DNA from: Stentor roeselii
Taxonomy: Eukaryota; Ciliophora; Heterotrichea; Heterotrichida; Stentoridae
Assembly: GCA_006503475.1 (NCBI GenBank)
Contig: RSEH01000113.1
Coordinates: 81,746 to 145,745, forward strand
DNA length: 64,000 nucleotides
Direction of reading: 5' to 3'
Below are positions 19,039 through 60,938 of this stretch, in pieces. Both the position numbers and the translations under genes were made by a program. How positions within the stretch are numbered: the stretch's first letter is position 1; the number at the start of each line of letters is the position of its first letter. The notes beneath the pieces were generated by a model that was not told where the DNA came from, ran no database searches, and was given only the letters and a program-made list of their open reading frames with translations.

Positions 19039-20172
19039 ATGGGCTCGATTTGTCAATGTTTCAAGCCAACCCCTTCTCAACCAGAAGCCGAGGACATAGA
19101 CGAGCCCTTTATCTCGAAAGACGAGCCGACCCCTTCAAGTCCTATAAGCCTTGATTCATTTCAAGTAGAAAAGCAACTCGGCAAAGGAACCTTCGGAAAG
19201 GTGATGCTCGTCCGAAAGAAAGACAACGGCAAGATTTTCGCGATGAAAATAATTAAAAAAGCTCTGATCGAGAAGTACAAACACGTCGACCATACTAAAA
19301 CAGAAAGAAAAGTCCTTGAAGAGCTCAGTCATCCTTTTCTAGTAAAACTTAGATACGCGTTTCAGTCAAAAACAAAACTTTACATGGTCATGGACTTTAT
19401 CAATGGAGGAGAATTGTTTTATCATTTGAAGAAATCAAGAGTTTTTTCTGTTGATCGAGCAAGATTTTACGCTGCTGAGATACTCATCGCGCTTGAGTAT
19501 CTACATTCTCAAGGAGTTGTTTATAGGGACTTGAAGGCTGAGAATATCTTGATTGATACTTCTGGTCATATTAAATTAACTGATTTTGGACTTAGCAAAA
19601 AGTTCTTCGCTCCTGAGAACTTTAAAACTTACTCATTTTGTGGAACTCCTGAGTACCTTGCACCTGAAATTCTCTTAGGTGTTGGACATGATAAATCTGT
19701 TGATTACTGGAGCCTTGGAGTGCTTATATTTGAAATGCTCTCTGGAGAACTTCCTTTTTTCAACCCTAATAAGCAGGAGCTTTACAAAAGCATTGTTAAG
19801 GCTGAGTATCAAATGAAGACTTACTTTTCACCTGACAGTCAAGACCTGATTCAGAAACTGTTAGAACCGAATGTAAGGAGTACTTAGCAAGTTGATAGAT
19901 TGAATCAGTTTGAAGTTGTGAAAAATCATTCCTTCTTTAAAGGAGTTGATTGGGTAAAAATGAAGAATCTCATGATTGACCCACCATTCAGACCTCGAGT
20001 GAGAAATGAAGAAGATATAACTAACTTTGAAAAGCTAATCACTGATGAAAAAATCCAAGAAAGTATCACTTCAAATCTTGTCGGGTCAGGCCAGTTCATC
20101 AAATTTGATGATTTCACCTACAACCAAAGTCCAAAGTTCGAAATGACAGAAGAAGTAAAAACCCAAAACTAA
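19039..20172 (+). CDS. AGC-family Ser/Thr protein kinase (two exons), N-terminally acylated
   Basis: Exons 19039..19872 and 19888..20172 give 372 aa. MGSICQCF is a candidate N-myristoylation site with adjacent Cys for palmitoylation. The kinase domain (~40-310) has LGKGTFGKVMLV, AMKIIKK, VYRDLKAENILI, LTDFGLSKKF and the T-loop YSFCGTPEYLAPE; all catalytic residues are present. The intron falls in the LLEPN region, and its removal restores LLEPNQVDRLN...KNHSFFKGVDW. The C-tail carries the hydrophobic motif FDDFTY (FxxF[ST]Y), so PDK1-type T-loop and TOR-type tail phosphorylation are expected, as in S6K/AKT. Confidence 0.93.
19873..19887 (+). other. 15-nt intron in the AGC kinase
   Basis: gtaaggagtacttag, canonical GT-AG with A at position 10. 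It contains an in-frame TAG if retained. Both flanking exons match the AGC kinase family without gap. Confidence 0.95.
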
Positions 20173-44272: not shown

Positions 44273-44566
44273 ATTTATGGTTGCTTTGATGAAATGTTAA
44301 CAACTACAAATTTTTCAAACTAGTAAAAAAGTTAAGATTTAAATAATTTCCTAAAAACAACTCCAACAATTCAAATAATTCATTTTCTTTATTCTAAACA
44401 AAGAATTCGAAATAAAAATTTTTTAAATCCTTTCACTAAATCGCGTAAAACTTATTCAAACCCTCAAAATACCAAACAATAAAAAAAATCCTAAATTCTC
44501 TGACTTAAAGCTAAAAAGCCCATACCCACAATCCAAACAACAGTAATTTCAAAAAAATTTAAAAAA

Positions 44567-45967
44567 ATGGACCCAAAACGTGTGGTTTGCTTAGGAGCAG
44601 GTTTCGTAGGAGGTCCAACAATGGCAGTCTTCGCTTCAAAGCACCCCGAAATCCAATTCACAGTTCTCGACCTTGACTCGTCAAAAGTCGATAGTTGGAA
44701 TTCGAGTTCTCTTCCAATATACGAGCCGAACTTACTCGAGATAATCCAAACAACACGAGGCCAAAACCTTCATTTTTCAACAAACATCTCCGAAGAGGTC
44801 CTTCAAAGCGACATGATCTTTATTTCAGTTCCGACGCCGACGAAGACTCAAGGTCTTGGTGCAGGAAAAGCTTGTGATTTGAGTTATTTTGAATCGGCAG
44901 TTCGAATGATCGCTTCAACATTATCATCATTCAAAGGAACCAAGACAATAGTCGAGAAATCAACAGTCCCAGTCAGAACAGCAGAGCTGGTAAAAGAAAT
45001 TTTAACTTATAACTGCAAAGAACTAGATTTTTCAGTCATTTCAAATCCAGAGTTCTTAGCTGAAGGGACCGCAGTGAATGACCTGCTCTTTCCCAGCAGG
45101 GTGTTAATCGGCGGCGAGTCACAAGCAGCAGTGCAGTCTTTAGCAAGTCTTTACGCAAAGTGGGTCCCTTTAGACAAAATCATCACCACAAGTCTCTGGT
45201 CTTCAGAACTTTCAAAGCTCTGTTCAAATGCGATGCTGGCTCAACGTGTGAGCAGCATAAACAGCATCAGCGCGATTTGTGAAAAAGTAGGAGCTGATGT
45301 TGATGAAGTCTCTAAAGTCCTTTCAAAAGATGATAGAATCGGGGCAAAATTCTTGCAAACTAGCATCGGATTTGGAGGGTCTTGCTTTAAAAAAGATGTT
45401 TTTTGTCTTGTTTATATTTGTGAGACTTTTGGACTTTTTGAAGTTGCGGAGTATTGGAAACAGGTTATTGTTATGAACCAGTTTCAAAGGAATAGGTTTT
45501 CAAGGATTATCACTAGAATGGTCGTCAGTTTAAGAGATAAAATGTTTGCGGTTTTTGGATTTGCGTATAAGAAAAATACGAGTGATACTCGAGATAGCGC
45601 CGCTGCTTATGTTTGTCATTCTTTGATAGTTGAAGGAGCTGTTTTGAATGTTTTTGACCCGAAAGTTGCGAGAGTTCAGATGGTTAATGAAATGAACTCG
45701 CAGGGATTTCTTGAGGGAATTGATGCTGAGAAAAAAATGGTCAGCTTTGCAGATCCTTATGAAGCTGTTAAAGGATGTTGTGCTATTGTTGTTTTAACTG
45801 AATGGGATTTGTTTAGAGGTCTGGATTTTGAGATTATGTTTAATAGTATGACCAAACCTGCTTTTGTTTTTGATGGAAGGAATTTACTGGATCATAGTAA
45901 TTTGAAGAAAATTGGGTTTAAAGTTGTGGCTATTGGGAAAAGTGAATTTTGCATGCAGGTTAGTTAA
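44567..45967 (+). CDS. UGDH: UDP-glucose 6-dehydrogenase
   Basis: 466 aa, the eukaryotic length. N-terminal VVCLGAGFVGGPTMAVFA (Rossmann, GAGxVG), FISVPTPTKTQG, VEKSTVPVRTA, NPEFLAEGTA, and the catalytic GFGGSCFKKDV with its Cys nucleophile near 277, followed by GFAYKKNTSDTRDSAA and VLTEWDLF. Reaction: UDP-glucose + 2 NAD+ to UDP-glucuronate. It supplies glucuronate/xylose donors for glycoconjugates. All key residues (Lys220 region, Asp280 region) appear intact. Start context TTTAAAAAAATG. Composition flips from C-rich to G-rich inside this ORF. Confidence 0.97.
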   Translation: MDPKRVVCLGAGFVGGPTMAVFASKHPEIQFTVLDLDSSKVDSWNSSSLPIYEPNLLEIIQTTRGQNLHFSTNISEEVLQSDMIFISVPTPTKTQGLGAGKACDLSYFESAVRMIASTLSSFKGTKTIVEKSTVPVRTAELVKEILTYNCKELDFSVISNPEFLAEGTAVNDLLFPSRVLIGGESQAAVQSLASLYAKWVPLDKIITTSLWSSELSKLCSNAMLAQRVSSINSISAICEKVGADVDEVSKVLSKDDRIGAKFLQTSIGFGGSCFKKDVFCLVYICETFGLFEVAEYWKQVIVMNQFQRNRFSRIITRMVVSLRDKMFAVFGFAYKKNTSDTRDSAAAYVCHSLIVEGAVLNVFDPKVARVQMVNEMNSQGFLEGIDAEKKMVSFADPYEAVKGCCAIVVLTEWDLFRGLDFEIMFNSMTKPAFVFDGRNLLDHSNLKKIGFKVVAIGKSEFCMQVS

Positions 45968-50764: not shown

Positions 50765-52096
50765 ATGGATTTTCTTATTAGAAATCTTTCAAAAAGCTTG
50801 AAAAAAGCTCTGGTTACTCCGGCTTCACAGGTTTTTGATATTTTAGAGGATATCAAAACGAAAGTGAGTGATGAGGATAAAGAAAGGTTGAATTGGTGTA
50901 TTGAACAACTTAAGTCTGGAAGCTTTTCAGCACCTCAGCCTAGGATTCCTGCACTTACTGCTATTCAGATATCGCAGGAAACTGTTGATATTATTGAAGG
51001 ACATTCACAGCTTCCTTCGCTTCGACTTGCTATGAGTGATGAAAAGTCGTCGAAGGAGTCTTTGGAATATCGAAGTAGATCGGCTTTGAGCTCTGATATT
51101 GGAACTGGCTTGAATATTGAGATTGATTTACCTGAAGCTGATTTTGATATTCAAGATTTTGATCTTCCTATTTTTGGACTGGCTGAAAAATATGGGGAAA
51201 ATATTCTCCTGAGCATTTACGCTTTCAAAGCCTTTTCAAAATGGGACATTTTCACAAGTCTAGGAATGAATATCCAAGTATTTCTCCGATTTGTCTCAGC
51301 CGTGGCAGACGGGTACAAACCAAACGCATACCACAACGTTTTACACGCAGCAGACGTGATGCAAGCATGCCACGTATTCCTATCATCATCAGGTCTTTAC
51401 CAACTATCCGAGATGAACCAGATGCATTCAAGTTCCCTTTTATTAGCAGCTTTAATCCACGACTACAAACATCCAGGTTTAAACAACTCTTACCTGATGT
51501 TGACAGGGCACAAAATCGCTTTTCGGTATAACGATCAGTCTATTCTTGAGAACTATCATGTTTCTAAAGCCTTTCAATTGACTCAGAATGAATCACTGAA
51601 TATTTTTCAGTCGTTATCAAAGGAAGAGTACAGAACTATTAGGAAATTGATGATCAGTGCTGTTTTAGCTACTGATATGAGTAAACATTCTATTCATGTT
51701 GGAGAGGTTCAGACCAAGCTGTATAAAAATAAAGATTTGAGAACTGAGAAAGGGTTTATTTTAGAATGCTTTTTACATCTCGCTGATTTGAGTAACCCTT
51801 GTCGTAATTTCGAGATTAGCAAGAATTGGGCTGCAAGGGTCAGTGAAGAGTTCTTTTTGCAGGGCGATAAGGAAAGGGAAAATGGAAGTGAAATTTCTCC
51901 ACTTTGTGATCGGTTTAGTGTCAATATTGCAAAAAGTCAAATTGGGTTTATTAGTGGAGTCATTATTCCGTTTATTACACCTATATGTAGAGAAGTGAAA
52001 GGACTTAGATTCTTAATCAATAATTCCAAAGCAAATAGAGAGAAATGGACATCACTTATTGATGAATACCAAGAAAAGATTAATAAAAGGGAATAA
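50765..52096 (+). CDS. Class I cyclic nucleotide phosphodiesterase
   Basis: 443 aa from the ATG at 50765; a longer reading starts with TTG. The HD-type catalytic domain occupies ~140-420: YHNVLHAADVMQ, IHDYKHPGLNN (HDxxHPG) and LHLADLSNP hold the metal-binding His/Asp residues; NGSEISPLCDR and QIGFI contain the Gln that contacts the purine. All metal ligands are present. No TM, GAF or PAS domain in the N-terminal ~135 residues. Known reaction: hydrolysis of cAMP or cGMP to the 5'-monophosphate; which one cannot be told. Confidence 0.93.
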   Translation: MDFLIRNLSKSLKKALVTPASQVFDILEDIKTKVSDEDKERLNWCIEQLKSGSFSAPQPRIPALTAIQISQETVDIIEGHSQLPSLRLAMSDEKSSKESLEYRSRSALSSDIGTGLNIEIDLPEADFDIQDFDLPIFGLAEKYGENILLSIYAFKAFSKWDIFTSLGMNIQVFLRFVSAVADGYKPNAYHNVLHAADVMQACHVFLSSSGLYQLSEMNQMHSSSLLLAALIHDYKHPGLNNSYLMLTGHKIAFRYNDQSILENYHVSKAFQLTQNESLNIFQSLSKEEYRTIRKLMISAVLATDMSKHSIHVGEVQTKLYKNKDLRTEKGFILECFLHLADLSNPCRNFEISKNWAARVSEEFFLQGDKERENGSEISPLCDRFSVNIAKSQIGFISGVIIPFITPICREVKGLRFLINNSKANREKWTSLIDEYQEKINKRE

Positions 52097-52312
52097 ATAA
52101 TAGAAACTATTTCTATTGACTGAGAGTGAAGTGGATAGTAGTAAGTAATTATTTTAAATTTCTTGGTACTCAATATATGAGTGTAATCCATAAAGTGAAA
52201 ATTCGAAACCGATCTGATTTTCATCCCACTTAGAGCCGAAATATTTAAATTTCTTTAAATTTAAGCTTAACCGAGTCAATTTTTCCCTAAATTGCTTAAT
52301 ACTGCTAATAAA

Positions 52313-52843
52313 ATGGATTTTAATTACGACGACGAAGCGATAAATCCAATTCAAATCACCCAAGGAGTATTTTTCGTGCCATGTCGTATAAACAATTCAA
52401 CTGCAGAATACGTCCCATGCGTGACTCCCCTAAAAACTACCACTTTTCAATTGAAAATATCAAGCCGACATGTCTGGACATCAGAAGAGGACGAGAATTT
52501 AAAGAAAATCGTTGAAAACACTGGCGCTAAAAACTGGTCAAATGTTGCTTATCAATTAAATGCACAAATTTATCAAGGTCTTCCCATTCGGCAAGGAAAA
52601 CAATGCAGAGAAAGATGGTTCGGAAGTCTTGCTCCTGAGATACAAAAAGAACCTTGGAGTGTTTATGAGGATTTCATTTTGTTTCATCAGCAGAAAAGAT
52701 TTAGAAATAAATGGACCTTGATTTCTCAATATTTACCTGGAAGAACAGAAATTCAAATGAAAAATCGGTGGAGGAAAATTGAAAAAAGTATGAAAAAACA
52801 GATGAGGACTATGAAAAAATTCTTAAGAAAAAGATTTTTTTGA
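52313..52843 (+). CDS. R2R3-like Myb protein
   Basis: 176 aa from the ATG at 52313; upstream in-frame TTG rejected. Two SANT/Myb repeats: HVWTSEEDENLKKIVENTGAKNWSNVAYQLN...RQGKQCRERWFGSL and EPWSVYEDFILFHQQKRFRNKWTLISQYLPGRTEIQMKNRWRKIE. Trp spacing is typical and the recognition helices (GKQCRERW, EIQMKNRW) are intact, so sequence-specific DNA binding is expected. The basic C-terminus (KKQMRTMKKFLRKRFF) could be an NLS. Confidence 0.88.
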   Translation: MDFNYDDEAINPIQITQGVFFVPCRINNSTAEYVPCVTPLKTTTFQLKISSRHVWTSEEDENLKKIVENTGAKNWSNVAYQLNAQIYQGLPIRQGKQCRERWFGSLAPEIQKEPWSVYEDFILFHQQKRFRNKWTLISQYLPGRTEIQMKNRWRKIEKSMKKQMRTMKKFLRKRFF

Positions 52844-53197
52844 CTGTCTAGTCAGTTGTTATCCGATAGATAAAGTACAGAATTTTGATTAGATATTTCA
52901 TTTTTGGTTTGTTTAGTATTTTATATTAAATCTTAACTGTTTTGAAATTTAAAATCCTTAAATATTAGTGAATTGATTTTGTAAAATCTTCAATTTAAAA
53001 GGCTCTAAAGCATATATAACTAAATGATTAAATTGAATAAATATTCTTAAGTAAATATCTTTCGATATATTAAAATCTCACAAACATCATAAAAATACCT
53101 TAATCCAACAAATTTATTAATCCTATCAACCTTAATAAACCTAAAAAAATGCCAGAAAATCGAAAATTATTATAATTATTCCCTAGGCCCCAGAAAA
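52844..53197. other. Spacer, no gene seen
   Basis: AT-rich; the last ~100 bases before the F-box gene are C/A-rich. Nothing recognised. Confidence 0.5.
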
Positions 53198-54868
53198 ATG
53201 GATCTGCCAGTCAAAAGAAAATCCAACTCTTCCTCTACCTCCCCATTCAAAAGGTCAAAAAGACTCGAAACCCAATCAAAAAAACTTGAAAGTCTCAGTC
53301 CAAACCTATTAAACCTAATCCTCAACTTTTTACCATTCTCCGAAGTAGTCTCAATCATATCAAACTTGAACTCTTCCTTCAAGTACATCGCTTTAAACTC
53401 CTGCAAAACAAGGACAAACATGGAATTCGATTTAAATTTAATTTCAGATAAATTTTCAACAAAAAAGTTAAAATTCGAAGAGTTTTTTGAATTAACTTCA
53501 AGTAAAAGTTTAGAAGTTTTGAAGATAAAAGTTAATAAATTCTTGAAAAGTTCTGGAAAAAACTTTGGACTTGAAAAAATTTTTAATGCTTTGGTGAATG
53601 ATAGGTTTAAAACTTTGAAGTGCTTTAAACTTGATTGTAAAAATTTTAGTGTGATTGAAGTTGAGGATATTGCTGGAAAGTTTGATGGGTTGGAATGTTT
53701 GGAGATTTCTGCGAATTTGAAGTTTCCGGATATGGTTCGGTTTGTTTGTGAAAGAGTTATTGGCAAGGTTTCATCATTCAAAAGACTAGAACTAAAATAC
53801 AGTTCATTCACCTCCACAGAAGACATTTCAGATCTTTTAGAAAAAATTTTAAGTACAAGTCTAACAGACTTTTGCTTAAAGTTCACAAATAGTTTTTTAT
53901 CTCCTATTCAACTGACGAGATTAGAAATTCATAACTTTTTTCTCATAAGTCTGACTCTTCCTCCAGAGTTTGTTTTGACTCACGAGTCCTCCGAGTCAGT
54001 TTGCAAGTTTATTTTAAGCTGCAAGACTTTAAAAACCCTTTCAATTTCTTCAACTATTTCCAGATCTTTGCAGAATTTCGTAAAAGTTCTGAGTTTTAAT
54101 AAAACACTTCAGTCTTTGAAACTTTCAGGTTTTCAAAACGATCGATTTTTGAACTATGAGCTGAATTCTCTGGATTGTATTGAAATCATGAAGGCTCTTA
54201 AGTCTAGTTGTATTGAAAACTTGTCGATGTCAATCAACTTCACCACAAATAAATCCTTCTACATCGACATCGATGAAGAAAAAATAATAAACCAAAAACT
54301 CAGCAAGTTCATTCAAATCTTCCAAGAAATGATAGAAAAAAATAAGCTCATCAAGAAAATAAGCATCATCTTACGTCAAGTTCCATTTTATGTAGTGAAG
54401 CGTTACTGCAAGTCGCTAATCAATCTAGTAAGATCAGGAAAACTTCATTTTTTATTCGGGTACAATTTTTTTGACTTGATTTTCAACAAGTCACGAGTTT
54501 TCCAAGTGAAAAAAAGACACGCGACTTTGAGTAACTCTTCAAAAGAATTCAGAACCCTCGCTCATCTCATTAAACTTTCCTCATCATTTTCATTAGGAAT
54601 TGAAAGAATTGTTGATAAAAAAATCTATAAAATCGATTTTTCATTAGGAGACCTTGCAAGAAAATTCAAGACGGAAAATGAGGTCCTTATCACTAAAACT
54701 CGTTCAGAATTTGTGAACTTTATCATTGTTGTCATGCTTTGGAGCTTAAAAAACTCGATTTTGGCTGTTGGGGATAATCGAGAAGTTTTAGAAGAGAAAA
54801 ATTTTTATAAGATCCTCGGGTTTTTAGATACTTCAAGTAAAATATATTTAATTAAGAAAAATATCTGA
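53198..54868 (+). CDS. F-box-like protein with degenerate leucine-rich repeats
   Basis: 556 aa. After a basic 30-residue start, LSPNLLNLILNFLPFSEVVSIISNLNSSF (about 33-60) fits an F-box. The rest has irregular Leu-rich repeats of RNI type (FKRLELKYSSFTS, LKTLSISSTIS, LQSLKLSGFQNDRF, CIENLSMSINF). F-box/LRR proteins are substrate receptors of SCF ubiquitin ligases; the substrate here is unknown. An overlapping antisense ORF (53176-53886 minus) is a composition shadow. Strand composition switches at about 53760 and 54240 inside this ORF. Confidence 0.7.
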   Translation: MDLPVKRKSNSSSTSPFKRSKRLETQSKKLESLSPNLLNLILNFLPFSEVVSIISNLNSSFKYIALNSCKTRTNMEFDLNLISDKFSTKKLKFEEFFELTSSKSLEVLKIKVNKFLKSSGKNFGLEKIFNALVNDRFKTLKCFKLDCKNFSVIEVEDIAGKFDGLECLEISANLKFPDMVRFVCERVIGKVSSFKRLELKYSSFTSTEDISDLLEKILSTSLTDFCLKFTNSFLSPIQLTRLEIHNFFLISLTLPPEFVLTHESSESVCKFILSCKTLKTLSISSTISRSLQNFVKVLSFNKTLQSLKLSGFQNDRFLNYELNSLDCIEIMKALKSSCIENLSMSINFTTNKSFYIDIDEEKIINQKLSKFIQIFQEMIEKNKLIKKISIILRQVPFYVVKRYCKSLINLVRSGKLHFLFGYNFFDLIFNKSRVFQVKKRHATLSNSSKEFRTLAHLIKLSSSFSLGIERIVDKKIYKIDFSLGDLARKFKTENEVLITKTRSEFVNFIIVVMLWSLKNSILAVGDNREVLEEKNFYKILGFLDTSSKIYLIKKNI

Positions 54869-54975
54869 GAATTGAAGTTTTAGGATTTTGAATAAGTTTG
54901 AGAGATCTTTAGTTAAAGTTTAGATTATGCTTCGCTGATAGTTCAGAGAGATAGAATTATTTGAATATTAGGAAA

Positions 54976-55150
54976 GGAATTTCGCTTTTATCTTGAATTT
55001 GGATATCAGAGGGTCCATGGCTGGAGTAATTTTGATGCCTTGAAGAAATGTGTGAATGGATTTTTGGGAACTTTGATTCAGATGATTTTGTCTCATGCAT
55101 TGTTTTTAAAGCTGAACCGAAACTGATGAATGATTTGGTTGCAAGAAAAT
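54976..55150 (+). pseudogene. Fragment of a VWA gene, decayed
   Basis: Reads NFAFILNLDIRGSMAG before losing frame, then by frameshift matches FGNFDSDDF...CIVFKAE...LM. This aligns with the C-terminal half of the VWA genes at 56-61 kb (NFAVLLNLDISGSMGG...NDVASCLVFND...LI). The MIDAS Ser is Arg, and a stop plus a frameshift are visible. Only this half is recognisable. Confidence 0.75.
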
Positions 55151-55966
55151 CAATTACTCAGAAGAAAACCTTCTACCATATTAAATAATCATCAAACTAC
55201 CCTAAAAATAGACTATCAGAAAGAGATAAGTAAGAAAATTGTTGTCTAGTTAGTGAATTCAATAGTTAATAAATATTAGAAATTATATGAGAGAATTTTT
55301 TTTTATATTAAACCATATATTAGTCTATTAAAATTTTCCCAGACCTCTGAATGCTATTGTGAAGAATTTAAACATCTTATTCATGAATCACTGCTGGCTA
55401 ATTAAAAACTGCTAAAGCATTCCTATTTCGTACCTTGCAATTATATACTGAAAAGCCAAGTAAATCATCAAAAACACTCAAAAAATTATAAGTTTTTAGA
55501 TTTAATAGTATCTCATTTCCGAAGTATGCATGTGATTAAATTTTCTTATTGTTATTTGCATGTTTTTCTCAAAGGTTAAGATTACAACAATCTAAGTAAT
55601 CTAAAGTCAAGTTTTTTCTACCTGAAAAATAATTTATGTTAAATTTATTCCTGATCTCCGAATTTATAAAATATTTACAATACATGCCATATCTGATAAT
55701 AAATTCATATTTATCAAAGCATTCACTTCCAATAGTTGATCCTCATTACTAAAATCTAAATCACGTTAATCAATCTTTTCACATTCAAATTTCATCCCAT
55801 ATACTAAAATCTAAATTTAAAACTATTTAAATATTCATCAAATAATTTCTTTTTCATATAAAAGTTAGCTAAACGTTAAAATTCATCCTATATCAGAACC
55901 GATAAATCTGTAAACAACTATTTTAATAAACATGCTTAAATATTATAAGATTATAAAATTCCCAAA
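55151..55966. other. AT-rich spacer, no gene seen
   Basis: Low-complexity AT-rich sequence between the VWA fragment and the minus-strand VWA gene; no ORF or repeat recognised. Confidence 0.5.
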
Positions 55967-56851
55967 CTAAATAATAACACAGCAGCACTTTCCCTCAGTT
56001 TTCGGCTGATCTACCAGTCTAGGATGAGAATCATTATCAATAATTTTCAAGTCTTGGACATGATCCTCAGAACAACGAGCACTTGGACCATCATCATACT
56101 TCAAAGATCCTTGATTTTCCAAAAATTTATCTAAAAAGTTTACCTGATCATTAAAAACAATTCCTAAAACAAAGTCATTTGAATCCAAATTACCATAAAA
56201 CTCTTTGATACTTTTTATCAAGGCATTGAACCTGCCTCCAGCCATCGATCGACTAATGTCCATGTTTAAAACAACAGCAAATCTTTTTTTGCGAATATCG
56301 AAATCAGGTTTGTTTTCATTAGAAACTGAGAAAAAAGAATCTTTTTCATCAGTCAAATATTCAAGTTTCCCCAAGCGATGCATTTTTAATCTGAGAGAAA
56401 TTTTTTTGAATATTTCGTCAAAGTTGACTCGATCTATGCTAAAGACTTCACAAGTGTCCTCGCCGAGATTCTTTAAAAACTTTAAATCAGCTATGGCCTG
56501 GCTTTTAGGATCTATTCCTATGAAGATTGTTAGACAATTTTCTCTTGGGATTTGAGACTCCATCAATGAAAATTGATTTGAAAGATCGGATAGTGAAGTT
56601 GAGGATGAATTGTCTTTTCCATGGGATATGATCACATGAACAAAGATAAAGTTGCTAGTTAAATCGAGTTCTGATAAAGTGGTTTTGAATTTCAGAATCA
56701 TTTTTGAACCTAACATTAAGGAATCTCTTAAGGATGAACTTCCATTAGGGTGGATTAGTTTAATGTTTTTTGAGATATTTGAGTCTCTCGCTGATTTAAA
56801 CCCAATTCTGCCAAGAGTTTGGCTTAAAAAAGCTTCATTCAGATTTTCCAT
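55967..56851 (-). CDS. Circularly permuted VWA-domain protein, C-terminal CVII
   Basis: 294 aa. The second half of a VWA fold comes first (SSLRDSLMLGSKMIL, FIFVHVIISHGKD, FIGID, EIFKKI), and the first half comes last (RFAVVLNMDISRSMAGGRFNALIKSIKEFYGNLDSNDF...FNDQV). Thus MIDAS DxSxS is near the C-terminus, not the N-terminus. The MIDAS Thr is Ser and the usual TDG is SHG, so metal binding may be weak. A ~50-residue acidic linker leads to GKCCCVII, a CaaX box with two more Cys for palmitoylation. It is the most diverged of the three intact copies. Confidence 0.8.
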   Translation of the reverse strand: MENLNEAFLSQTLGRIGFKSARDSNISKNIKLIHPNGSSSLRDSLMLGSKMILKFKTTLSELDLTSNFIFVHVIISHGKDNSSSTSLSDLSNQFSLMESQIPRENCLTIFIGIDPKSQAIADLKFLKNLGEDTCEVFSIDRVNFDEIFKKISLRLKMHRLGKLEYLTDEKDSFFSVSNENKPDFDIRKKRFAVVLNMDISRSMAGGRFNALIKSIKEFYGNLDSNDFVLGIVFNDQVNFLDKFLENQGSLKYDDGPSARCSEDHVQDLKIIDNDSHPRLVDQPKTEGKCCCVII

Positions 56852-57705
56852 TTTTAAGCAAAAATAAACAAATTTATAAAGTTTGTATAAAATTTATTAA
56901 TATTTCAAATTAATTTAACTACTTGAAATATTCCATCGTACTTACCAGTCCTTTGAGTTTTACAAAAGTGTAAATACCCTCTATTCAAACTTCCTAAATT
57001 CCACCTGAATTTCAATTCCAATCACTAAGAAAAGTCCATAACTAAGGAAAATACTCTAAAACCTTGAAGTTGATTCATAAAGCCTTAAATTTATCTACAT
57101 TATTTTAAGAATCATAAAGATTATTATTGATTATTAGTGAATTTTTCTTAGTAATTTAATATATTATTTACTTAAATATAAAATGTTTAAGATTTACTTT
57201 TTAAAGGTGTAATGTTTGAGTTGACACCATTTCCTGATTTTCCCAATAATCTAACCATATTATAATTTATTTGTAAAATTCAGCATCAAATTCATGAGAA
57301 AAATTCAATTATCAAATATTTTTTATATTCTCATCAACCATAATTCCAAAAAAAAATACAAATACTATTTACTTCTAAGGCATATTATTACATTTCCTAC
57401 AAAAATGAAAAATTGCACTTTCGCCTCTAAGACTAAAATTTTACCTTTAAAATCCCAAATAACTAAATCAAACTAGCATAAGCTTGAATCAAATAAAACC
57501 ATCAAGAATCCAACACTAAAAACATCCTATAAACCAAAAATTTCACTTTCCTAAAAATAAAAAAAATTTCTTCATAAAATTTGTAAGTCAACAACTTTGA
57601 TAAGAATCCCAAAAGTCTAATCTTTCTCCAAAATTTCTGAACTTCAAACGCAATCTTCATTAATAAATTCTATTAATTTTCGATTTTCTATAAATTTCTA
57701 TAAAA
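56852..57705. other. AT-rich spacer, no convincing gene
   Basis: A 60-codon ORF at 57294-57476 is of low complexity and has no start context; I do not annotate it. From ~57480 the plus strand becomes C/A-rich ahead of the VWA pseudogene. Confidence 0.45.
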
Positions 57706-58440
57706 CTGGATAACAAAGTAGCAGCACTTACTCGAATCCTAATGAGCAGCAGCTTCGAATCAATAAAAACCTAACAATAATGAGCAGACTTTCACATGTC
57801 CATCCAAACGGTCAGACAGCTCTGCGAGATTCAACATTGCTAGGAATCCAATTAATTCTAAGTCTAAACCAACAACTCTCAGAAATCGATTTATCCGAGG
57901 CTTTTTCCTTTGTGCACATCGTGATAACAGATGGAATCGACAACTCCTCTCGGACTTCATTAGATTAACTAGGTTCAATGTTCAATTTAGTAGGAATGTT
58001 GATACCTAAAGAAGTTGTCTCACAGTTTTTATCGGTGTTGATTTGAGTGTCGATGCAGCAAGAGATCTTTCTTCACTTTCAGAACTTGGACTAGATACCT
58101 GCCAGTTTTATAATGTTCACAATGTTGAACTTAATAGTATTTTTCAAAGGATGCCTATGAGTATTGGGGTTCGAAGACAGACAAATATTGGATTGTTTCA
58201 GGCTGGAGCTGTTACTGGAATGGCTGTTCGTCAGCAGAATATTCCTTTTTTGATGTTAAGAGGGAAAATTATGCAGTTGTACTTAATTTAGACATCAGTG
58301 GATCGATGAATGGCCAAAGGTTTCATGTTTTGAAGAATAGTGTTCAGAGCTTTTTGAAGAATCTTGAACCGAATGATATTGTGACTTGCATGGTTTTCAA
58401 TGGAACGGTTCAGATGCTTAATAATTACCGATGCTAGGTA
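57706..58440 (+). pseudogene. VWA pseudogene, permuted type
   Basis: Alignable along its length to the 58940 and 60153 genes. The start ATG is CTG (57706), an early stop follows, then the frame reopens (SRLSHVHPNGQTALRDSTLLGIQLI...AFSFVHIVITDGID), hits TAA at 57966, frameshifts near 58020 (…IPKEVVSQF), reopens at ~58043 (SVDAARDLSSLSELG...GVRRQTNIGLFQAG) and shifts again near 58265 before DISGSMNG. The end NNYRC has lost the CaaX tail. It documents decay of a once full-length permuted copy. Confidence 0.88.
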
Positions 58441-58939
58441 AATTTTCGATTTAGTGATAGTTTAATCAAATTTAAAAAAAGTCTTTTTATAAATATATTT
58501 AAATGCATAGAAAGATTGATTGAAATTTATGTTGTAATGTTTGATTTTCAACAATAGTGATGGTATAAATATTGAAATTAATAGTAAGAATTCATGAAAT
58601 AGCAGAAATATTGTAGTAAATGTTAAGTATGAATTTATAATTTCTGAAGGTTTTAATAGAATATCAAAGTTTTTGCTATTAATCCTTTGAATTCGAGTCT
58701 TAAATCAATTTAATAAAGAAATTTAATATGAATAAATTTAATTGTTTAATACATAACTGAACAAAGATAATATAACTTGCAAAAAACTTAGCCAGAGTGC
58801 TTTCTTCATTACAAGAAATATAATTTCAGATATTCAATCATTTTTGAAAACACCTAAAATTATAATAATAATTTTTCAAGACTCACCTACTTTACTAAAA
58901 TAACACGCTAAATAACGAATATTCTACATAATTATAAAA
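58441..58939. other. AT-rich spacer, no gene seen
   Basis: No ORF. In particular there is no upstream exon that could supply a conventional N-terminal VWA half to the 58940 gene. Confidence 0.6.
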
Positions 58940-59719
58940 ATGGAATCTAATCTCAAAGCAGCCTTACTAAGTCAACTTCTAATAAAATTCGGCTTCGAGG
59001 CGATAAAAAATACATCAATAATGAAGAGACTATCATACGTCCGTCCAGATGGCGAAACCGCTTTACGAGATGCTACTTTAACAGGGATCCAGCTAATGAT
59101 AAACCTAAACAAATCCTTACTGCAACTCGAACTATCTCAAGCCTTTTCCTTCGTCCACATCGTAATAACAGATGGAGTCGATACAGTATCCAAGACCCCA
59201 CTCGACAAACTTGCCCTGATGTTCGGTTTAATAGGAAGAGGAATTCCAAAAGACCGTTGTTTGACAGTATTCATTGGAATCGACTTAACTGCTGAAGCAG
59301 CAGTTCAACTTGCTTTACTTTCAGCTCTTGGTGGAGACACCTGCCAATTGTACAACGTTCATAATGTTGAACTTAATGAAATCTTTCAAAGAATTAAAGC
59401 AACTATTGGAATTCGAAGACAGACTAGTATTGGAATGTTTCAATCTGAGGGTATGGCTGGAATGGCTTTTCAGCAGCAGAGTATTCCTGTTATGATGCTT
59501 CAAAAGAAAAACTTTGCAGTTGTGCTTAATTTAGATATCAGTGGATCTATGAATGGCCAGAGGTTTAACTCTTTGAAGAATAGTGTTCAGAGGTTTTTGA
59601 ATAATCTTGAACAGACAGATGTTGTGACTTGCCTTGTTTTTAATGAAAAAGTTCAGATGCTTAATAATTATCAGCCTAGGCAGACTGAACCTCCGAATAT
59701 CGAGTGTAAGGTCTATTAA
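58940..59719 (+). CDS. Circularly permuted VWA-domain protein, C-terminal CKVY
   Basis: 259 aa. Order: helix (~1-30), GETALRDATLTGIQLM (MIDAS Thr), AFSFVHIVITDGVDTVSKTPL (MIDAS Asp), CLTVFIGIDLT, EIFQRI, linker GIRRQTSIGMFQSEGMAGMAFQQQ, then NFAVVLNLDISGSMNGQRFN (DxSxS), FLNNLEQTDVVTCLVFNEKVQMLNNYQP. All MIDAS residues are present, so Mg2+-dependent binding is plausible. It ends CKVY, a Cys at -4. A GTAAGGTCTATTAAT sequence overlaps the stop; splicing there has no AG at 15 nt and is not proposed. Start context AATTATAAAAATG. Confidence 0.85.
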   Translation: MESNLKAALLSQLLIKFGFEAIKNTSIMKRLSYVRPDGETALRDATLTGIQLMINLNKSLLQLELSQAFSFVHIVITDGVDTVSKTPLDKLALMFGLIGRGIPKDRCLTVFIGIDLTAEAAVQLALLSALGGDTCQLYNVHNVELNEIFQRIKATIGIRRQTSIGMFQSEGMAGMAFQQQSIPVMMLQKKNFAVVLNLDISGSMNGQRFNSLKNSVQRFLNNLEQTDVVTCLVFNEKVQMLNNYQPRQTEPPNIECKVY

Positions 59720-60152
59720 TATTAATTTATTTAGATTTGGGTAAATAATTACTCTTGTTATCTGTTCTGTACTAAGTAGTATAAAACATTAAAAAACCTT
59801 GTAATCTTTTTATTCATTTTTATAAAATTATTCTAATAAAATAGTCTATAAAATAAACTTAAATATGTATTCCAAATAAACCCTCAAAGAAATCCTAAAA
59901 CCTAAAAAACTCGAATTTCCATAAATCCCTAAAAATCCCAAGCAAAAAAAACATAATAAAATAATATCCTTAAATTCTCAAAAAATTCTCAAAATCTCTC
60001 ATTTCTCAAATTCCTAAAAAAGCCTCCAAGATTCCATCCCGACAAGAAATTTCCGACTTTTTCCCCTCTGAAAAAAAAATCCAATTTTTTTTCAGATTTT
60101 CTTCAACATAAGAAATCTTTCCATTGAATATTCTACATTCCATCAATAAAAA
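59720..60152. other. Spacer, no gene seen
   Basis: AT-rich, then C/A-rich before the next ATG. No sequence encoding a VWA half is present here. Confidence 0.6.
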
Positions 60153-60938
60153 ATGGATAATGTTAAAGCAGCACTAATCGGGCGTCTGATGGCCCAGCTA
60201 GGATTCGAGACAATTCGAAACTCGACTCTATTAAACCGTCTATCATCAGTTCGCCCTGAAGGAGAGACGGCCTTGCGAGATGCGACACTTGCAGGTATCC
60301 GAGTGATATTGAAACTAAACGAAACCTTATCAGAACTAGGTGCATCAGAAGCCTTTAGCTTCGTTCACATCGTGATAACCGACGGGGTGGACACAGTGTC
60401 GAACACTTCTCTCGAAGAGCTTTCAATGATGTTCGCGCTGATCGGACGAGGCATTCCGAAAGAAAGATGTTTGACTGTTTTCATCGGGGTTGAACTGAGT
60501 CCAGAAGCCGCCATGCAGCTTGCATTACTTTCGGCTCTTGGAGGAAACACCTGCCAATTATACAATGTTAATAAAGTTCAATTAGGAGAGATCTTTGAAA
60601 GGATCTCTGCAAGTATCGGAGTTAGAAGACAGGTCAACATCGGAATGATTCAAGCTGGAGGCGTCAATGCCATGGCTGTTCAGCAGCGCAATGTTCCTGT
60701 CATGACTATTCGAAGAAGGAACTTCGCTGTTTTGCTCAATCTTGATATTAGTGGGTCTATGGGCGGACAACGATTTAATGCTTTGAGAGGAAGTGTCCAG
60801 AACTTTTTAAGGAATCTGGACGGAAATGATGTTGCGTCTTGCTTGGTGTTTAATGATAGGGTACAGCTGATTAATAACTATCAGCCAAAACAGGTTAATA
60901 TGGTGCAAGGAACTCAAGTTACATGCGTGCATCAATAG
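60153..60938 (+). CDS. Circularly permuted VWA-domain protein, C-terminal CVHQ
   Basis: 261 aa, about two-thirds identical by eye to the 58940 product. Same permuted order: GETALRDATLAGIRVI, AFSFVHIVITDGVDTVSNTSL, CLTVFIGVELS, EIFERI, linker GVRRQVNIGMIQAGGVNAMAVQQ, then NFAVLLNLDISGSMGGQRFN and DVASCLVFNDRVQLINNYQP. All MIDAS residues are present. It ends CVHQ (Cys at -4). The conserved Gln-rich linker and IRRRNF stretch separate the two halves. Start context ATCAATAAAAAATG. Confidence 0.87.
   Translation: MDNVKAALIGRLMAQLGFETIRNSTLLNRLSSVRPEGETALRDATLAGIRVILKLNETLSELGASEAFSFVHIVITDGVDTVSNTSLEELSMMFALIGRGIPKERCLTVFIGVELSPEAAMQLALLSALGGNTCQLYNVNKVQLGEIFERISASIGVRRQVNIGMIQAGGVNAMAVQQRNVPVMTIRRRNFAVLLNLDISGSMGGQRFNALRGSVQNFLRNLDGNDVASCLVFNDRVQLINNYQPKQVNMVQGTQVTCVHQ

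Follow-up and report, generated by a model that had tools for sequence, protein, structure and literature searches.

We found that a gene cluster of the ciliate Stentor roeselii, at positions 55967-60938 of the window (the whole 64-kb stretch of DNA analyzed), encodes proteins in which the two halves of a von Willebrand factor A (VWA) domain stand in reversed order. The cluster contains three intact open frames (genes A, C, and D) and one broken copy (pseudogene B). Our preferred reading is that the proteins are natural circular permutants of VWA, each closing on itself within one chain, and we give it a probability of about 0.8. Sequence comparison showed the reversed order and the homology of both halves to VWA in C and D; within the literature covered below, the arrangement is new as a variant of this well-known domain. 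The features of the cluster are as follows.

55967..56851, minus strand: gene A, 294 amino acids; putative permuted VWA with a degenerate metal-ion-dependent adhesion site (MIDAS; Ser for Thr, SHG for TDG) and the tail GKCCCVII.
About 57706..58437, plus strand: pseudogene B; it has lost its start codon, contains an in-frame stop, and is broken in frame; the first segment was read by eye.
58940..59719, plus strand: gene C, 259 amino acids; putative permuted VWA with the full set of MIDAS residues and the tail IECKVY.
60153..60938, plus strand: gene D, 261 amino acids; putative permuted VWA with the full set of MIDAS residues and the tail VTCVHQ.
60222..60422, plus strand: gene D residues 24-90; alpha2/Thr loop (GETALRD), helix, and ITDG strand, equivalent to VWA model positions 61-117.
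60633..60716, plus strand: gene D residues 161-188; linker between the former C and N termini.
60717..60893, plus strand: gene D residues 189-247; betaA with DISGS, alpha1, betaB, and betaC, residues 192-247 being equivalent to VWA model positions 3-59.

C and D share 65% identity over 245 residues, and A is 35-38% identical to either of them.

We built a VWA model from 31 bacterial VWA domains and ran it on the 1693 stop-to-stop frames of the window. It matched C with 48.0 bits (E 1.1e-13) and D with 41.5 bits (E 1e-11), each time as two stretches in reversed order. In open-frame numbering (minus 8 for C and minus 1 for D to give the residue from the ATG), model positions 61-116 matched 33-97 of C and model positions 3-55 matched 201-253. 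In D, positions 61-117 matched 25-91 and positions 3-59 matched 193-248. The N-terminal stretch alone gave i-Evalues of 0.0043 (C), 0.0027 (D), and 3.6 (A), and the C-terminal part scored 32.5, 25.3, and 19.1 bits, respectively. The canonical order, first half before second, was reversed in C and D with both parts significant, and in A the reversal was seen by alignment. Likewise, the Thr loop and TDG strand of the second half were found in C and D and were undetectable in A alone. The sequence-only reading of this DNA had placed the Thr/TDG half first and the DISGS half last in all three intact proteins, and these matches bear it out, with A assigned through its alignment to the others.

Profile-profile comparison with hhalign gave a collinear alignment once the VWA profile was doubled or the query was rotated, as a circular permutant should. 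The family profile scored 61.9 against a single VWA and 79.4 against two tandem VWAs, the latter in one collinear alignment over residues 25-244. The rotated family profile scored 82.5 against a single VWA. None of 200 column shuffles reached the observed score in any of the tests (N half, doubled, rotated); the highest shuffled scores were 73.1 in the doubled test and 67.4 in the rotated test. The N-half family profile alone scored 33.9 (mean of 200 column shuffles 13.3, maximum 21.1). Taken one sequence at a time, the N half scored 35.5 in D and 31.9 in C, and the maxima of 60 shuffles were 16.2 (D) and 25.0 (C). The homology of the N half to VWA lies mainly in residues 25-117, the rest of that half being weakly aligned.

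Existing profile libraries recognized parts of the same arrangement. PF00092 scored 26.4 bits on C, above its cut-off of 23.8, and 22.1 bits on D, below it. Pfam VWA positions 2-52 matched residues 194-241 of C above the curated cut-off, and the signature of the VWA first half (betaA with DxSxS, alpha1, betaB) was found there. The only Pfam match of A was PF13519 (14.2 bits, below the cut-off of 27); with its halves rotated, A was newly listed for Pfam VWA at 16.2 bits, in a single stretch across the joint, still below the cut-off. PHROG 7371, a family labelled as of unknown function, is matched by three canonical VWA domains from position 8 or 9 onward. Its positions 69-114 matched residues 29-85 of C (E 1.5e-4), and positions 71-114 matched residues 31-84 of D (E 7.9e-4). 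The C halves of C and D matched PHROGs 2426 and 5359 weakly (E 0.02-0.07), close to where the VWA part of those profiles begins, and gene A had no PHROG match.

Structure prediction of the monomer, which the sequence-only reading had proposed as a check, gave a single compact alpha/beta unit. We ran AlphaFold2 with two alignments, both shallow. The C-first alignment (6 rows, 3 of them pieces of B) gave the better model (pLDDT 74.7, pTM 0.77), and the D-first alignment (3 rows) gave pLDDT 67.9 and pTM 0.69; the remaining four models of each job were lower (56.8-62.9 for C-first and 54.8-61.3 for D-first). In the better model, helices (H) and strands (E) alternate through both halves. From residue 42 the elements are H42-62, E69-77, H88-101, E107-114, H118-134, E135-140, E191-199, H207-222, E228-235, and E237-240, with a low-confidence stretch between the halves (residues 146-186). 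As predicted, this is the order of elements expected for a permuted VWA. On the placement of betaA beside betaD in a doubly wound sheet, we obtained this compact model and no global fold match of the order-dependent kind. Foldseek results were read over the best 50 matches of each list. The top fold match was 3rag (probability 0.99, TM 0.39/0.44, root-mean-square deviation [rmsd] 11.6). Among local matches, rank 15 in BFVD was an annotated viral VWFA protein (111 columns, rmsd 3.9), and rank 23 in the PDB list of the D-first model was a 19S proteasome chain (75 columns, rmsd 3.2), which we take to be Rpn10, a VWA protein.

These results also bear on how the two halves might come together. An N half could pair with the C half of a different molecule to complete the domain, and domain-swapped dimers or head-to-tail polymers would result; the low-confidence stretch joining the halves makes such swapping sterically possible. 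However, the monomer prediction is compact, and, according to the available part of PMC3919171, the termini of VWA domains are normally close together, so that the linker would bridge them easily. With a linker of about 28-40 residues, closure within one chain is favored, and we consider pairing between molecules unlikely. In the most elaborate form of that idea, the proteins would assemble by themselves into metal-dependent head-to-tail polymers, held at the membrane through lipid on the tail Cys, and a giant cell would have a filament system built of VWA domains; we regard this as highly improbable.

Several observations weigh against a circular permutant. Only three intact family sequences were available. 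The N half of gene A alone scored 12.4 by hhalign, which is the level of its shuffles (60 shuffles, mean 12.05, maximum 18.0), and 4.0 bits on the bacterial VWA model, so A is assigned only through its homology to C and D over the whole protein. Pfam found no match when given the N halves of C and D alone, and an NCBIfam search gave no match confined to the N half. Swapping the halves brought scant gain in Pfam (C from 26.4 to 26.5, D from 22.1 to 22.3), and it was therefore that we made the profile-profile test. A search with swapped halves, as the sequence-only reading had proposed, was in this way informative with hhalign and uninformative with Pfam for C and D. Rotated D brought no gain against PDB sequences, and the second piece of a match to ITIH1 had an i-Evalue above 1000, far from significant alone. 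Foldseek gave no match with E 1e-3 or better in the PDB or BFVD, and among the 50 PDB matches listed for the better model none was labelled VWA, the best query TM-score being 0.39. Absence of an in-order match is expected because Foldseek follows chain order and the fold would be permuted, although this is not positive proof.

Some of the same observations would fit an N half that is an unrelated Rossmann-like alpha/beta unit, convergent on the Thr/TDG segment and joined to the first half of a VWA. Pfam is silent on the N halves of C and D, and the leading PDB fold matches, among those listed, are mixed, with many Rossmann-like by our reading. However, this segment is picked out by each of two separately built profiles, which align it in the correct register down to the GxT and TDG positions, and we find convergence very doubtful.

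The least probable of the alternatives is a gene-model artefact, in which an upstream exon supplies another DxSxS half and the DISGS half at the C terminus opens a second VWA that is truncated. In its favor, Stentor genes have introns of 15-16 bases (available part of PMC9505925), 15-base candidates are present in the window, and our gene-by-gene motif test reached only 433-914 bases upstream. Against it, D-x-[ST]-x-[ST] was absent from every coding-strand frame before the ATGs of D (433 bases), C (502), and A (914), the VWA and C-half models matched nothing else significant in the window beyond A, C, D, B, and the relic described below, the N termini of A, C, and D align from their ATGs, and D has an in-frame stop with a single codon between it and the ATG. 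Upstream similarity among the three genes was short and scattered, with best E values of 0.004 for A-C (31 columns), 0.007 for C-D (13 bases), and 0.012 for A-D (32 columns). The claim that no upstream exon is missing holds over the DNA covered by this test.

The circular permutant is further favored by the way in which the two halves have been conserved. D and C share 107/160 residues of the N half and 41/59 of the C half, and D and A share 59/160 and 29/59. Within the domain, conservation is lowest in the linker (12/28 between D and C, 5/28 between D and A), so of the conserved linker in the sequence-only reading it is the length that is kept, while the sequence varies. Comparison of D with C gave dN (nonsynonymous) of 0.266 and dS (synonymous) of 1.71, the latter near saturation, which makes the estimate rough. 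Taken by half, dN was 0.224 (N) and 0.215 (C). Because dN is far below dS and low in each half, both halves are held by selection. The set of MIDAS residues is complete in C and D (DISGS, GETAL, TDG). Gene A keeps DISRS, with SSSL for the Thr loop (MIDAS Thr to Ser) and SHG in place of TDG, a loss of two metal-site residues. The circular permutant that had been proposed for this family is supported by the shuffle-tested profile scores, the PHROG matches, the constraint on each half, and the compact prediction, and the closure of the fold would follow from them by interpretation.

Based on these results we propose the following arrangement, with strand and helix names of our own assignment. The chain would begin between betaC and the Thr loop and run through alpha2/Thr loop, betaD (TDG), alpha5, betaE, alpha6, betaF, and alpha7. 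The linker would follow, and then betaA (DISGS), alpha1, betaB, and betaC, the whole closing on itself into one VWA-like fold. In C and D, the DxSxS, Thr, and Asp residues would meet in one metal (MIDAS) site, making these proteins a probable metal-dependent binding module for other proteins. Gene A lacks part of this site, and its product is probably independent of metal. The tail at the C terminus would leave from the betaC edge with a Cys four residues from its end, perhaps a site for a lipid anchor in A. As to origin, permutation by duplication is the most likely route: two tandem VWA copies would have fused and then lost their outer halves. The model is from the available part of PMC3320104, and its application to this cluster is ours.

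VWA is among the most widespread binding domains, and affinity of the integrin type is set by movement of the C-terminal alpha7 helix. In a permuted VWA, the linker would connect alpha7 to the DxSxS strand, and the free ends would lie elsewhere. A natural protein would thus uncouple the VWA fold and its metal site from the route by which the domain is usually pulled. The cluster would also be a test case for permutation by duplication inside a tandem gene cluster.

We compared the family with known systems. Canonical VWA and integrin I domains (PF00092, PF13519) have the same DxSxS, Thr-loop, and TDG segments and the beta/alpha alternation seen in our model; here, in contrast, the halves are swapped, a linker joins the old termini, and the chain now starts and ends between betaC and the Thr loop. 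When the C half was compared with PDB sequences, the best named matches included the VWAs of ITIH heavy chain H1 (6fpy) and calcium-channel alpha2/delta-1 (6jp8), both large extracellular proteins; the matches were weak (best E 0.006). The ITIH1 match also includes an N piece, not significantly, and in ITIH1, unlike the cluster, the DxSxS piece precedes the TDG piece. The cpRAS GTPases (PMC2430557) and swaposin (PMC3320104) are, in the available parts of those papers, natural circular permutants of widespread domains; unlike here, the permuted domain is a GTPase or a saposin and not a VWA. A VWA domain is also present in one type of cpRAS, and families of VWA paralogues are noted in Tetrahymena and Paramecium (same part of PMC2430557). 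Stentor transcripts named 'von Willebrand factor domain protein' (PMC9371601, available part) share the presumed organism and the domain name with the cluster, a comparison by name and not by domain order. We recognized no natural circular permutant of a VWA or I domain among the open-licence PMC papers listed by our searches, and the statement that no family with swapped VWA halves has been described holds within those searches; a prior description elsewhere is possible.

Relatives of the family were sought more widely. There was no usable match in phages (tblastn with C), viral contigs, or genome contigs. The family profile matched 5 of 398 bacterial genomes, each only within profile positions 149-243, with no permuted relative among them. 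Three loci were rejected as relatives: L001 lies opposite a long frame read as MetE-like, L002 lies opposite an unrelated phage-like frame, and L003 gave match numbers identical to those of L002.

All three intact genes have a Cys at position -4 (CVII in A, CKVY in C, CVHQ in D). Among the 52 stop-to-stop frames of at least 150 amino acids in the window, exactly these three have it (3/52), a count that includes unlikely antisense frames and was made after the pattern had been noticed. In the alignment of the D and C tails, 1/11 residues is common, and it is this Cys. A CaaX box calls for an aliphatic a2 and a suitable X after the Cys at -4. By these rules only A (CCCVII) fits well; in CVHQ the a2 position is His, and the last residue of CKVY is Tyr. 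The suggestion that the tails are compatible with prenylation stands for the position of the Cys in all three and for a convincing CaaX box in A only, and judging from its tail prenylation of the gene A product alone is plausible. The last frame of pseudogene B ends in NNYRC, without a Cys -4 tail. Alteration of the tails by a 3' intron was rejected, by inspection by eye only.

The tandem gene cluster is still turning over. In pseudogene B, pieces corresponding to the N half, the middle, and the C half of C and D follow one another in the same permuted order, and the remains of a further copy lie outside the cluster. Two more features belong here.

54945..55185, plus strand: relic of a fifth family copy, outside 55967-60938; linker end and DISGS half only, frame-broken, just beyond a 591-codon frame.
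58917..58929, plus strand: 13-base element GAATATTCTACAT, with an identical copy at 60126-60138; it ends 10 bases before the ATG of C and 14 before that of D.

The 591-codon frame (53093-54865, plus strand), upstream of the relic, is without a Pfam match. The 13-base element before the ATGs of C and D is perhaps a start or promoter element.

The window has a GC content of 33.5%. Stentor uses the standard genetic code and has introns of 15 (92.8%) or 16 bases (available part of PMC9505925). A non-standard code for the cluster was ruled out, as the standard code gives these frames normal stops. Candidate GTA..AG introns joining long frames in the window numbered 4 at 15 bases, 0 at 16, and between 0 and 2 at any other length in the range 10-25, and the excess at 15 bases is consistent with a Stentor-like genome given those intron lengths. 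The 15-base candidates are at window positions 19873, 27137, and 41306 (plus strand) and 44103 (minus strand). By Pfam, neighboring plus-strand frames encode a UDP-glucose/GDP-mannose dehydrogenase (44504-45961), a cyclic nucleotide phosphodiesterase (50765-52093), and a Myb-like DNA-binding protein (52310-52840).

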